A DNA stretch of 44,738 nt, taken from positions 1-44,738 of the forward strand of contig JAOPYL010000305.1 of NCBI GenBank assembly GCA_025964625.1, given 5' to 3'. Below, piece after piece: positions 15,734-26,037 of the stretch; position 1 is the stretch's first letter; each line of letters opens with the position of its first letter. The notes under the pieces are model-generated. The model saw only the letters and a program-made list of their open reading frames with translations. It was not told where the DNA came from and ran no database searches. The stretch comes from Actinoallomurus sp. (lineage in GTDB: Bacteria; Actinomycetota; Actinomycetes; Streptosporangiales; Streptosporangiaceae). A program made the position numbers and the translations under genes.

Positions 15734-16351
15734 TCAGCAGGCCTCGCCGTTGAACGTGCAGGCGGTGGGCAGCTCACCGCCGCCCTGGGCGGTGAACAAC
15801 ACCTTCACCGACCGCCCTGGCGCGATGGACGGGTGCGCGGCGGGGTTGCGCACGACCAGGGTGGAGCCCGTGCGAACCTCTCTGGCGTACGAGACGGAGG
15901 TGACCCTGGCCCCGGGGTACCGGAGCGTCAGCGTCCAGCCCTTGATCGTGCTGTCGCCGCGATTGGTGATGGTCGCCTGGCCCTCGAACCCGGTCGGCGC
16001 CGTCCACGTCGACACTGTACGGAACGCGACCGCGACGGCCATCCGGCCGGATCCGCGGCTCGCCCGGTTCCTCGCGCGCGGGCTCAGTGATGAATCGTCC
16101 CGCGCGGTGCGCCCGCCCTGCGGCGGCGTCGAGTCGGTGATCGGCGGTGACTGCCGGCTCGAGGTGGACGGGGGGCCGCCCGCGAAGTTCAGTGAGATCT
16201 GCTGCGTGCTGATCGCCGATACGACCGCACCGATCGCCACGACACCGGCGACCGCCGGCAGGAGCGGCACCTTGCCGACGCCCCGGCTCCTGTCAGGGCT
16301 GCGGCCCGCCGGAGCGCCGTCTTCCACGTCGTTTTTGGTGTGTCGTCCCAT
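15734..16351 (-). CDS. Membrane-anchored protein with CBM2-like domain
   Basis: A 205-aa protein with a charged cytoplasmic N terminus, one hydrophobic segment at about 30-50 (LLPAVAGVVAIGAVVSAI), a Ser/Pro-rich linker and a C-terminal module of about 95 residues. The module has the family-2 carbohydrate-binding pattern: WTAPTGFEGQATITNRG, TIKGWTLTLRYPG, and a final Cys pair in ACTFNGEAC. No catalytic domain is present. The start is ATG 16351 with GGAGAGGG upstream rather than the longer frame. It lies between thiL and thiD on the same strand and probably shares their transcript. Polysaccharide or wall-glycan binding is inferred from the fold only. Confidence 0.8.
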   Translation of the reverse strand: MGRHTKNDVEDGAPAGRSPDRSRGVGKVPLLPAVAGVVAIGAVVSAISTQQISLNFAGGPPSTSSRQSPPITDSTPPQGGRTARDDSSLSPRARNRASRGSGRMAVAVAFRTVSTWTAPTGFEGQATITNRGDSTIKGWTLTLRYPGARVTSVSYAREVRTGSTLVVRNPAAHPSIAPGRSVKVLFTAQGGGELPTACTFNGEAC

Positions 16352-16444
16352 CCCGTCCCTCTCCGGTCTCGGGATGTATACCAAAAGCACACCAGCCATG
16401 CCTACCAGACGAGCACCGCGAACAGCGACAACTCCTCGATTTGG

Positions 16445-17353
16445 TTAGCGGAAATGGTCCCATCCGCCAGATCCGTATGACCGCCCGTCGACCACGACGC
16501 CGACCGGGCCGGCGGTCACCCTTCCGATCACCTGCCACTCGGCGGGCAGAACGGCGTCCGGCGGGAAGGTCGCGGCGAACGCGTGATCGTCACCGCCGGT
16601 GAGCGCGAGCCGCCGGCCCTCTGGAACGGGTGGCGCCGGCACGCCGGCACTGTCGATCTCGATGCGCACTCCACTGGCCTCCGCGATGTGGCCGAGATCC
16701 TGGACGAGGCCGTCGCTGACGTCGAGCATCGCGGTCACGCCGAGGCTCACGGCACGCAGGGCCGCCTGGTACGGGGGACGCGGGCGCCGGTGCGCGGCGA
16801 CCAGGTCGGCGGGCTCCCTCAGGCCGCGCGACAGGAGCTCGACGCCCGCCGCGGCGTGGCCGAGCCGGCCGCTGATCGCGACGAGGTCCCCAGGACGTGC
16901 GCCCGACCGGGTGATCGCCGGCCCGTCCAGCACGCCGAGCGCCGTCACCGCCAGCAGCACGGTGTCGCCGCGGACGACGTCGCCTCCGGCGACCGAGGCG
17001 CCGACCTCGGCGCACTCGTCGCGGAGCCCGTCGCACAGCGCGTCGACCCAGTCGGCGGCCGTGTCCGGCGGAACACCGAACCCGAACAGCAGCGCGACCG
17101 GGCGGGCACCCATCGCGACCACGTCGGCGAGGTTCTGCGCCGCGGCTTTGCGCCCGATGTCGTACGGCGGCGACCAGTCCCGGCGGAAGTGCCGGCCCTC
17201 GAGCAGCAGATCGGTCGTCGCGGCGACGCGGCCGCCCGGCGCGCGGACGATCGCGGCGTCATCGCCCGGCCCGAGTTCGACGCCCGGACCATGGCCCAGA
17301 CGTCCGGCGATCCGCGCGATGAGCCCGAACTCTCCGAGTTCACCGACGGTGAT
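16445..17353 (-). CDS. thiL: Thiamine-monophosphate kinase, apparent ATC start
   Basis: Phosphorylates thiamine phosphate to thiamine diphosphate. The 302-residue reading starts TVGELGEFGLIARIAG after the first codon and has LGPGDDAAIV, TTDLLLEGRHFRRDW, IGRKAAAQNLADVVAMGA, AGGDVVRGD, DVSDGLVQDLGHIAEAS and LTGGDDHAF, all ThiL motifs. In this frame no ATG, GTG or TTG lies upstream of GTG 17122, which would remove about 77 conserved residues. GGAGG lies six bases before an ATC (17353-17351) directly ahead of the conserved N terminus, so ATC is the most likely initiation codon; GTC is the codon before it. The frame is otherwise intact. The gene is divergent from the Lrp-like gene. Confidence 0.88.
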   Translation of the reverse strand: MTVGELGEFGLIARIAGRLGHGPGVELGPGDDAAIVRAPGGRVAATTDLLLEGRHFRRDWSPPYDIGRKAAAQNLADVVAMGARPVALLFGFGVPPDTAADWVDALCDGLRDECAEVGASVAGGDVVRGDTVLLAVTALGVLDGPAITRSGARPGDLVAISGRLGHAAAGVELLSRGLREPADLVAAHRRPRPPYQAALRAVSLGVTAMLDVSDGLVQDLGHIAEASGVRIEIDSAGVPAPPVPEGRRLALTGGDDHAFAATFPPDAVLPAEWQVIGRVTAGPVGVVVDGRSYGSGGWDHFR

Positions 17354-17415
17354 GACCCACCTCCAACAAAGACAGGGTACGGTGGCCGCCTGACGGCAGT
17401 CCCAGGGAGGACGTG

Positions 17416-17649
17416 ATGGTGCAGGCCTACATCCTCATCCAGACCGAGGTCGGCAAGGCTGCCGACGTGGCCCGCGCGATCTCCGGCATCCAGGGCGTGA
17501 CCCTGGCCGAAGACGTGACCGGACCCTACGATGTCATCGTCCGCGCCGAGGCGAACAACGTCGACGAGCTCGGCAAGCTCGTCGTCGCGCAGATCCAGTC
17601 GGTCGAAGGGATCACGCGGACCCTCACGTGTCCCATCGTCCACATCTGA
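17416..17649 (+). CDS. Stand-alone Lrp/AsnC ligand-binding (RAM) domain protein
   Basis: A 77-aa protein made only of the Lrp C-terminal ligand-binding, or RAM, domain: VQAYILIQTEVGKAADVARAI, then GPYDVIVRAEANNVDELGKLVV and GITRTLTCPIV. There is no helix-turn-helix, so it cannot bind DNA alone and may sense small molecules or pair with full-length Lrp proteins. The start is ATG 17416 with GGGAGG five bases upstream; GTG codons three bases to either side are alternatives. This single-domain protein next to thiL is a regular actinobacterial neighbour. Confidence 0.92.
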   Translation: MVQAYILIQTEVGKAADVARAISGIQGVTLAEDVTGPYDVIVRAEANNVDELGKLVVAQIQSVEGITRTLTCPIVHI

Positions 17650-24021: not shown

Positions 24022-26037
24022 TCAGCTGCAGGTGATCTGGGCGTCGGCCCAGTCGGCGTGGTCGCTGTCGTTGCCGTTCCCGCCGTCGGTGACGATGAGG
24101 CGGACGAACGCCGCCCCGCCGACATCGGCGGTCAGGTGCTTGGCCGCGTCGGCGGTCGTGAGCAGGCCGCTGTCGGCGACCTTGGTGCCGTCGGCCCACA
24201 GCTCGAATGTCACCGAGCCGTTGGCCGTCTTCTCGTCGTCCACCCCGACGTCGGCCGACACCGAGGTGCACTTCTTGGCCGTGTAGTACTCCACGGAGCT
24301 CGGCGCGTGGACGCCGAGTCCCTTCTTGTAGACCGTGCCGTTGATGGTGATCGGGTGACCGTCGCCGGCCGCCGTCTCACCGTTGCTCATGTCCTTCTCC
24401 ACCGGCCCCCAGCCGTTCGAGGCGCGCAGCCAGGAGACGTCGCTCAGGTACGACGTGCCCGACGGCGGAGCGGTCAGCTTCAGGACCAAGACCTGGACGG
24501 TGGACTCGGCGGACGCCCCCAGGTAGGCGGCCTTGGCGGTGAGGTCGTACGTCCCCGGCTTGGCGTCGGCGGGCGGCTGCACCGTCCAGGTGGTGGCCAA
24601 CGTCCGGTTCGAGGCGAGCACCGGTGTGGTGCGCCGCGTGGTGGCCTGCACGGTCCAGCCGTCCGGGCCGGTCAGGTCGCTGCGGACCTTGATCGCCGGC
24701 AGCCGGCCGGAGTTGGTGACCGCCGTGGTCATGCTCGTGGCGGTGCCGGGCTGGATGATGGGAAGGGCCCCCGGGTACGCCACCGGCACGTCGATACCGG
24801 TGTCCACCGCGGGCGGGTACATCGCCCAGCGCCTGCTCGCCGACACCCGCACCATGACCGTGCCATGCGCGGGAACCGTCGCGGCGATCGTGCCGGCCGT
24901 CTCCCGGGTGGTGTGCGCCCACAGGTCGCGGACCGCGTAGCCCGGAGCGGCGGGCAGGCCGGCCGCCTTGGCCGACGTCGTGATCCGCTGGGGGGAGTCC
25001 GACTCGTTGAACAGCGCGACCGCGCGGTCGCCGTTCGCCAGCGGCTTGACGAAGACGTCGCGGCCGCCGTCGGTGCTGATCGGCGCCCCCTGGACACCGA
25101 GCCTGTCCTGGTCGACGGCGATGACGTCCTTGTTGGTGAGGATCTGCATCGTCTCGGCCGAGGCCTTGCGCAGGTCGCTGCCGATGAGCAGCGGCGCCGC
25201 CATCACCGACCACAGGCTGAAGTGCGACCGGTACTCGGTGTCGTTCATGCCGCCGTTGCCGACCTCGAGCATGTCGGGATCGTTCCAGTGGCCGGGGCCG
25301 GCGTACTGCGCCAGCGCCATGTTCTGGTGGACGATCGACAGCATCGACGCGTAGTTGTCGGAGATGTCGCCGGTGGTCCGCCAGGAGTTGCCGACGTCCT
25401 TGGCCCACAGCCACGGCTTGTTCTGGCCCCACTCGCACATGGAGAAGAGGATCGGCCGGCCGGTGGCCTTGAGCGCGTCCCGCATCGCGGTGTACCGCTT
25501 CTGAGCGTCGACGCCCTGGTTGTTGCAGTTGTCGTACTTCAGGTAGTCCACGCCCCAGGACGCCCACAGCTTCGCGTCCTGCTGCTCGTGACCCAGCGAG
25601 CCGGGCATCGTCTGGGCACAGGTCAGAGTGCCGGCACTGGTGTAGAGACCGAACTTCAGGCCCTTGGAGTGCACATAGTCGGCGAGCGCCTTGATGCCGT
25701 GCGGGAACCGGGTCGCGTTCGGCACGTAGTCACCGTTGGCATCACGGTTCTGCTCGGCCCAGCAGTCGTCGAGGTTGACGTACTGGTAGCCGGCGTCCTT
25801 CAGGCCGGAGGACACGAACAGGTCGGCGATGCTCTTGACCATCGCCTCGTTGAAGTCGGGTCCGCAGTGGGTCGCGTTCCAGTTGTTGAATCCCATCTGC
25901 GGGGTCAGGGCGAGGCCGTTGTCCAGGGCCGCCGCCGGCGGAGCGGAGGCGAGGGTGATCGTCGCGGCGCCGGCGACGATCACCGCGAGTGCGATGACCG
26001 CCGAGGCCAGGGAACGGATTGAACGGACCGTGCGCAT
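24022..26037 (-). CDS. Secreted GH27 alpha-galactosidase with NPCBM domain
   Basis: A 671-aa exported enzyme. The signal peptide covers residues 1-36 (ending PPAAA). The GH27 barrel begins LALTPQMGFNNWNATHCG; the nucleophile Asp is in YLKYDNC near 168 and the acid/base Asp in RTTGDISDNY near 224, with WNDPDMLEVG after it. A beta-sandwich and an NEW3-like linker follow, then a C-terminal NPCBM carbohydrate-binding domain from about 532 (LSDVSWLRAS, KGLGVHAPS). It releases terminal alpha-galactose from oligo- or polysaccharides outside the cell. ATG 26037 has AGAGGAG six bases upstream. It lies between the binding protein and the ATPase, and a hairpin follows each of the binding-protein and GH27 genes. 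Confidence 0.94.
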   Translation of the reverse strand: MRTVRSIRSLASAVIALAVIVAGAATITLASAPPAAALDNGLALTPQMGFNNWNATHCGPDFNEAMVKSIADLFVSSGLKDAGYQYVNLDDCWAEQNRDANGDYVPNATRFPHGIKALADYVHSKGLKFGLYTSAGTLTCAQTMPGSLGHEQQDAKLWASWGVDYLKYDNCNNQGVDAQKRYTAMRDALKATGRPILFSMCEWGQNKPWLWAKDVGNSWRTTGDISDNYASMLSIVHQNMALAQYAGPGHWNDPDMLEVGNGGMNDTEYRSHFSLWSVMAAPLLIGSDLRKASAETMQILTNKDVIAVDQDRLGVQGAPISTDGGRDVFVKPLANGDRAVALFNESDSPQRITTSAKAAGLPAAPGYAVRDLWAHTTRETAGTIAATVPAHGTVMVRVSASRRWAMYPPAVDTGIDVPVAYPGALPIIQPGTATSMTTAVTNSGRLPAIKVRSDLTGPDGWTVQATTRRTTPVLASNRTLATTWTVQPPADAKPGTYDLTAKAAYLGASAESTVQVLVLKLTAPPSGTSYLSDVSWLRASNGWGPVEKDMSNGETAAGDGHPITINGTVYKKGLGVHAPSSVEYYTAKKCTSVSADVGVDDEKTANGSVTFELWADGTKVADSGLLTTADAAKHLTADVGGAAFVRLIVTDGGNGNDSDHADWADAQITCS

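Follow-up and report, generated by a model that had tools for sequence, protein, structure and literature searches.

A probable AUC start codon of thiL, conserved in Actinoallomurus and related actinobacterial genera

Where does translation of thiL begin when its reading frame offers no ATG, GTG or TTG ahead of the conserved N terminus? The gene encodes the enzyme for the final step in vitamin B1 activation. The question is raised by a genome of the soil bacterium Actinoallomurus sp. (5.8 Mb, 375 contigs), from which we analysed one stretch of 44,738 nucleotides, called the window in what follows. The first-pass annotation of this DNA had placed the thiL start at an ATC behind a strong Shine-Dalgarno (SD) sequence. 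Our analysis leads to the same codon: thiL is very probably translated from a genuine AUC start with an extended ribosome-binding site. The features concerned are collected in Table 1.

Table 1. Features of the thiL region in the window
Feature	Position	Strand	Remarks and basis
thiL, thiamine-phosphate kinase	16445..17353	minus	302 codons + stop; proposed start ATC; translation, NCBIfam models, PDB matches
Proposed initiation codon ATC	17351..17353	minus	ATC/ATT/ATA at the aligned codon in 36/63 sampled family genera
First canonical in-frame codon GTG	17120..17122	minus	Judged not to be the start; would drop 77 residues including GPGDD
SD sequence GGAGG (GGAGGTG if extended to 17358)	17360..17364	minus	Six bases before ATC; duplex energies
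-10-like TACCCT within the CACCGTACCCTG box common to many relatives	17374..17379	minus	Upstream regions by eye
Divergent neighbour, 78-aa stand-alone Lrp/AsnC ligand-binding domain	17413..17649	plus	Pfam PF01037

On the minus strand, the 5' end of thiL reads TTTGTT GGAGG TGGGTC ATC ACC GTC GGT GAA CTC GGA GAG TTC, with the GGAGG exactly where it had been annotated, and the gene ends with a TAA at 16447-16445. The frame is open upstream to a stop ending 81 nt before the ATC and holds no ATG, GTG or TTG over that distance, as the first-pass annotation had stated. Translation also upheld its statement on the cost of the first canonical codon: a start at GTG 17122 would give a protein of 225 instead of 302 amino acids, and the segment EGRHFRRD would be lost together with GPGDD. 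An AUH codon (AUC, AUU or AUA) thus stands at the N terminus of a frame without a usable canonical start. In the ATC frame, the NCBIfam model NF004351 covers ThiL residues 2-302 with 383 bits (cut-off 324), and TIGR01379 covers residues 7-301 with 262.7 bits (cut-off 184.15). Both thiamine-phosphate kinase models score above their curated cut-offs, which bears out the family membership, and their nearly full-length match agrees with the earlier observation that no frameshift is present. Eight ThiL sequences from the PDB align from query residue 4-6 onward; in 1vqv, residue 4 pairs with query residue 4, and its first residue would correspond to the start Ile if the alignment is ungapped.

The comparison of thiL 5' ends in close relatives, proposed in the first-pass annotation as a check, was extended from the genus to the family. 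In the genus, thiL was present in all eight genomes searched, with ATC at the start in each of them. The sequence upstream of the ATC was GGAGGTGGGTC or GGAGGTAGGTC in 8/8 genomes, and no canonical in-frame codon occurred in the stretch seen, little of which is visible in one locus (L008) that begins 29 nt before the GEL codons. Codon, SD sequence and spacing all recurred in the eight genomes. The best named match was Actinoallomurus spadix, with 82% identity, and seven genus relatives aligned from ThiL residue 1 with 79-84% identity over the whole match and no stop. In one of the genus loci (L006) a TAG lies two codons before the ATC; the start in that species must therefore be either GTC or ATC.

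In the family, 320 of 341 genomes gave a thiL match (E <= 1e-60), and the start codon was classified in 114 distinct sequences from 63 of 68 genera. ATC, ATT or ATA (ATH) at the aligned place sufficed for the ATH class, even with a canonical codon upstream. By this rule 36 of the 63 genera were ATH, 23 were canonical, three belonged to neither class and one was mixed (g66, with one canonical and one unclassified locus). In 24 of the 36 ATH genera, at least one locus is free of canonical codons in frame over the 90 nt upstream, or as far as the stop; in the other 12 every locus carries one or more such codons over that distance, and for these 12 taken alone an ATH start is not proven. ATC was seen in the named genera Nonomuraea, Microbispora, Microtetraspora, Acrocarpospora and Herbidospora (11 distinct loci), canonical starts in Actinomadura (3) and in Streptomycetaceae. 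Beyond the family, thiL was matched in 192 of 196 genomes drawn from the class. The loci of this draw, with 40 further stretches, allowed 26 other families to be read: ATC occurred in three of them (f7, 1/1; f14, 7/8, two of these seven with a GTG three codons upstream; f30, 1/1) and was not seen in the other 23.

Taken together, 262 loci gave 255 distinct thiL sequences, seven being merged for identical first 900 bases. ATH stood at the aligned codon in 85 of the 255 (80 ATC, 3 ATT, 2 ATA). This count leaves out one of 86 such loci (L100, in g63), counted as canonical: its ATC is aligned, but it also has an in-frame GTG three codons earlier, close to where other g63 rows start with ATG or GTG. 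Ten sequences fell in neither class and were omitted from the comparisons of SD pairing, preceding codon and 5' composition. Six loci (L155, L157, L165, L166, L167 and L258) show neither ATH nor a canonical start where one is expected; in L155, L167 and L258 the ATC seems to be displaced by a few codons, and L166 could start at CTG. By these counts, the non-canonical codon is conserved across species.

The codons around the ATH were less constant. The preceding codon was GTC in 36 of the 85 sequences, GCC in 18, GAC in 10, GCT in 8, ACC in 6 and others in 7. The third thiL codon alternated between GTC (56) and ATC (19), a swapping that is the behaviour expected of a Val/Ile site. In 43 ATH loci, no canonical in-frame codon occurred within 90 nt or to the stop, and 12 ATH loci had an in-frame stop within 30 nt upstream with no canonical codon between. 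These 12 span six groups (g1, g3, g6, g11, g49 and g29/g30/g31/Microtetraspora), and the stop can be very close to the start, as in TAA GAC ATC (L106) and TAG GGG TGT GCC ATC (Microtetraspora). Such natural upstream stops are counterparts of the stop-codon experiment on the Streptomyces sigR GTC start that is described in the available part of PMC5472188. A canonical in-frame start upstream in relatives was among the findings named beforehand as refuting the ATC. Codons of this kind do exist within 90 nt in 42 of the 85 loci, but without being conserved; the same upstream ATG is separated from thiL by a TAG in loci of the Microtetraspora type. The nearest one is mostly at -18 or -21 (22 loci), in or just after the promoter-like box; in four loci it is at -9, and in the two g4 loci among these it is a GTG that sits in the SD sequence itself.

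What would allow such a codon to be used? Among 86 ATH-type loci, 60 have 6 nt between GGAGG and ATH, so that the spacing is mostly fixed. Median SD duplex energies were -13.8 for ATH (n=85) against -9.5 for canonical loci (n=160). By genus label the medians were -13.4 (44 labels, 85 loci) and -9.5 (35 labels, 140 loci; p = 6e-9), where the canonical value excludes leaderless-type genera (-6.8 with them, 53 labels) and the 44 ATH labels count a few genera twice through overlap of named loci and handles, which the 36/63 above does not. The SD sequence is thus extended, properly spaced and stronger in pairing than in canonical-start relatives. Further upstream, a box of the form xxGTAC starts 28-36 nt before the ATC in the 67 loci matching this pattern. 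Since it occurs in all three frames, the stretch between box and ATC is not coding. In the window the -10-like box ends 20 nt before the ATC; if transcription starts 6-8 bases past TACCCT, the leader would measure about 13-15 nt.

Two further ideas on initiation were considered. A leaderless start at the ATC is argued against by the presence of the SD sequence and by the -10-like box ending 20 nt upstream. A coupling device was also envisaged, in the form of an overlapping short frame that begins at the GTG inside the SD sequence and ends in the window at its seventh codon, a TGA; this idea was given up, since Nonomuraea-type loci, inspected by eye, are without that stop. As a separate observation, one canonical-start clade of the same family (L132, L133, L134, L146, L147, L151, L154 and others) has the same CACCGTACCCTG box ahead of thiL. 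In the L132/L133/L134-type clade, a GTG lies about seven bases after TACCCT with no evident SD sequence; this looks like a leaderless start, and one promoter box would then serve two initiation modes.

On a thiL tree of 145 rows, the ATH state required 7 changes, against a mean of 48 with shuffled labels. The tree came from a quick LG+G4 search and was built from thiL itself, and it cannot separate gain from loss. Of the ATH rows, sixty belong to a single 71-row group that also encloses the canonical, Actinomadura-like g55/g63, and six (g14, g22, g25, g40 and g42) were placed apart, among canonical rows. The beginning of the coding sequence also differs in composition, in a way that speaks for a start at the ATC: in 36 core ATH labels, GC3 of codons 2-15 lies a median of 0.50 below that of codons 61-200. 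This dip is absent in the Actinomadura-like canonical sisters (-0.02 to -0.07) and smaller in leaderless-type canonical genera (-0.15). Against this point, most deeper ATC lineages are without the dip, the window thiL shows it weakly (0.79 vs 0.93), and the 5' structure predicted for the window (-19.1) exceeds in strength the median label of either class (ATH -12.6, canonical -16.35).

Starts other than the ATC can be weighed against these data. Sequencing error, in the form of an ATG misread as ATC or a frameshift joining an upstream start, draws on nothing except the rarity of AUC starts. A base error, which the first-pass annotation had named as a possible refutation, is excluded because the same ATC occurs in 8/8 genus genomes; with ATH in 36 genera and a frame that is open without any shift, we give explanations of this type a negligible probability. 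A start at GTG 17122, which would imply a shortened protein or a pseudogene, has in its favour that this is the first canonical codon in frame. It is nevertheless highly improbable, as the 77 lost residues are covered by the ThiL models and by solved ThiL sequences, and the alignments of the seven genus relatives begin at residue 1 and contain no stop. Somewhat less remote, although still improbable, is initiation upstream of the ATC: some relatives would use a canonical codon, and the window the GTC that directly precedes the ATC. GTC stands before ATC in Actinoallomurus-type loci and, counted overall, in 36 of the 85 loci, and according to the available part of PMC5472188 sigR of Streptomyces uses GTC after AGGAGGTG. 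Elsewhere, however, GCC, GAC, GCT, ACC, CTC, CCC or AAG takes this place while ATH persists, a start at GTC would leave three bases only after GGAGG, and the stops just before the ATC in L106 and Microtetraspora exclude upstream codons in those loci.

The main rival accepts the AUC start and denies it a regulatory role: a weak start and a strong SD sequence would have drifted together, with only their product mattering. Because it shares the start codon with our preferred reading, the probabilities of the two do not sum to one. It is favoured by the canonical-start sisters (Actinomadura-like g55 and g63, and named Actinomadura), where a change to or from ATG/GTG evidently occurred, where the SD sequence is weaker (median -9.45, n=24) and where the total strength of initiation may be similar to that of ATH loci. 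Against it stands the third base of the codon. One base change would make ATG, yet the tree calls for 5 changes of this base among the 69 rows with ATN (ATG included, rows starting at another codon left out), whereas 60 conserved four-fold sites show a median of 22 and a range of 12-30. The base was C in 62 rows, T in 3, A in 1 and G in 3, one of these within the family (g15, L142), while the median G share at the four-fold sites was 0.32. We consider drift of this kind a serious contender, if one that we are inclined to doubt.

How unusual is such a start within one genome? With a simple gene caller, 279 genes were obtained in the window together with 360 kb of one relative (G001). Eight of them had no canonical start near the onset of coding, and among these eight a strong SD sequence before an ATH codon was confined to the two copies of thiL; the scan is blind to any gene that starts at ATH but has a canonical codon close by. 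infC escaped it on this account, as its frame in G001 contains canonical codons upstream. In the genus, infC reads GGAGGTCCC ATC AGC (GGAGG-TCCC-ATC AGC) in 7/7 loci, one of the eight genomes giving no match; in the genome that contains the window, no canonical codon occurs in the infC frame back to the stop. In 40 further genomes infC was matched in every one, and 30 loci were looked at; ATC AGC was found in 28/28 genes, in the 27 loci anchored by motif (L285, L306 and L309 were not). Genera whose thiL start is canonical also have infC with ATC AGC. The infC ATC thus looks general in the sampled genomes, and the thiL ATC clade-specific. Two side observations concern infC: one locus (L297, G034:C264) carries two infC genes at a short distance on the same contig, on opposite strands (24107-24610 plus and 24727-25230 minus), both with ATC AGC, and in one g63 genome a partial match resembling infC occurs in addition to the first, close to where a contig begins (G327:C1:1449-1891).

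A search for a riboswitch with Rfam gave no match at gathering scores in any part of the window. The starts of thiL and of the divergent Lrp/AsnC-domain gene are 59 bp apart. Between thiL and thiD lies a small CBM_2 (cellulose-binding) protein (15734-16399, minus), an odd presence among thiamine genes.

The claim that thiL starts at ATC therefore fared well, with ATH in a third of the distinct sequences, half of these being without a nearby canonical codon, and close upstream stops in 12. Codon and SD sequence, their conservation and the non-coding upstream frame are matters of observation, and for what follows on yield and initiation factor IF3 we draw on the measured cases of sigR, infC, ccpN and the AUU/AUA starts of S. 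aureus. A short leader and the extended SD sequence would keep the 30S subunit on a mispairing codon. Initiator tRNA would read AUC with a third-base mismatch, and ThiL would begin with formyl-Met, not Ile. As IF3 rejects such codons, the yield of ThiL would be a fraction of that from AUG, lower at high IF3 and higher at low IF3, as for infC; this low yield would be what selection keeps. By analogy, we consider it likely that the thiL start is sensitive to IF3, and the AUC probably holds ThiL production low, in line with the translational brake suggested in the first-pass annotation. The best reading is that thiL may be a new and widely conserved member of the class of AUH starts held down by IF3 (infC, sigR, ccpN). 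More tentatively, and in our view rather unlikely, thiL and infC would form a small IF3 regulon that ties ThiL to the ratio of IF3 to ribosomes, with AUC kept by selection for this purpose across dozens of genera. If this were true, thiamine diphosphate supply, and with it cofactor activation, would follow translation capacity.

Few bacterial genes with AUU, AUC or AUA starts have been described. No report of an AUC start in thiL was found in the open-licence literature, where most subscription journals are not covered, and mentions of an 'ATC start codon' in it concern, by title, mostly mitochondrial genomes or genes. The kind is known (an AUH start with an extended SD sequence); thiL as a member of it is new within that literature, as far as our searches show. 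Gene finders that assume ATG, GTG or TTG cannot call such starts, and the thiL N terminus may therefore be misannotated in many genomes of the group. A biosynthetic enzyme with an AUC start across dozens of genera would let the role of such starts be studied in a natural setting, and the material is at hand in the form of canonical-start sister genera, stops before the ATC, and ATT/ATA variants.

Among known systems, infC is the textbook case of an AUH start, with ATT in E. coli. It resembles thiL in its AUH codon, its strong SD sequence at short spacing and its deep conservation. The difference is that infC is autoregulated, since its product is IF3, whereas ThiL has no role in initiation; any control would therefore be one-way. 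The second chromosomal AUU gene of E. coli, pcnB, is likewise translationally limited, but it encodes the poly(A) polymerase of enterobacteria.

Another parallel is sigR. According to the available part of PMC5472188, its GTC start is repressed by IF3 in S. coelicolor, the infC start is ATC in Streptomyces, both genes have been misannotated there, and in the genera it discusses there is no evidence for the sigR GTC outside Streptomyces, so that the non-canonical thiL start spans more genera than are reported there for sigR. Both sigR and thiL are actinobacterial and have a non-canonical codon behind a very extended SD sequence (AGGAGGTG in sigR) that contains a misleading GTG, and the same stop-codon logic applies to them. 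They differ in that sigR has GTC, not ATC, thiL being ATH in 36 sampled genera of another family, and in that the IF3 effect has been measured for sigR and is predicted for thiL. The available text of PMC11497404 deals with CUG and does not mention AUC. In S. aureus, the accessible portion of PMC13009471 gives AUU/AUA starts with an extended SD sequence about 10% of the AUG level in one medium, and for ccpN up to 30% in another; the infC start is AUA in this species, and the non-canonical start of ccpN is conserved to B. subtilis. The staphylococcal ccpN and cvfC1 (AUA/AUU) share with thiL a conserved AUH start and an extended SD sequence outside infC. They encode proteins of Firmicutes, a repressor in one case and a small putative zinc-finger protein in the other, whereas thiL encodes a biosynthetic enzyme of high-GC actinobacteria.
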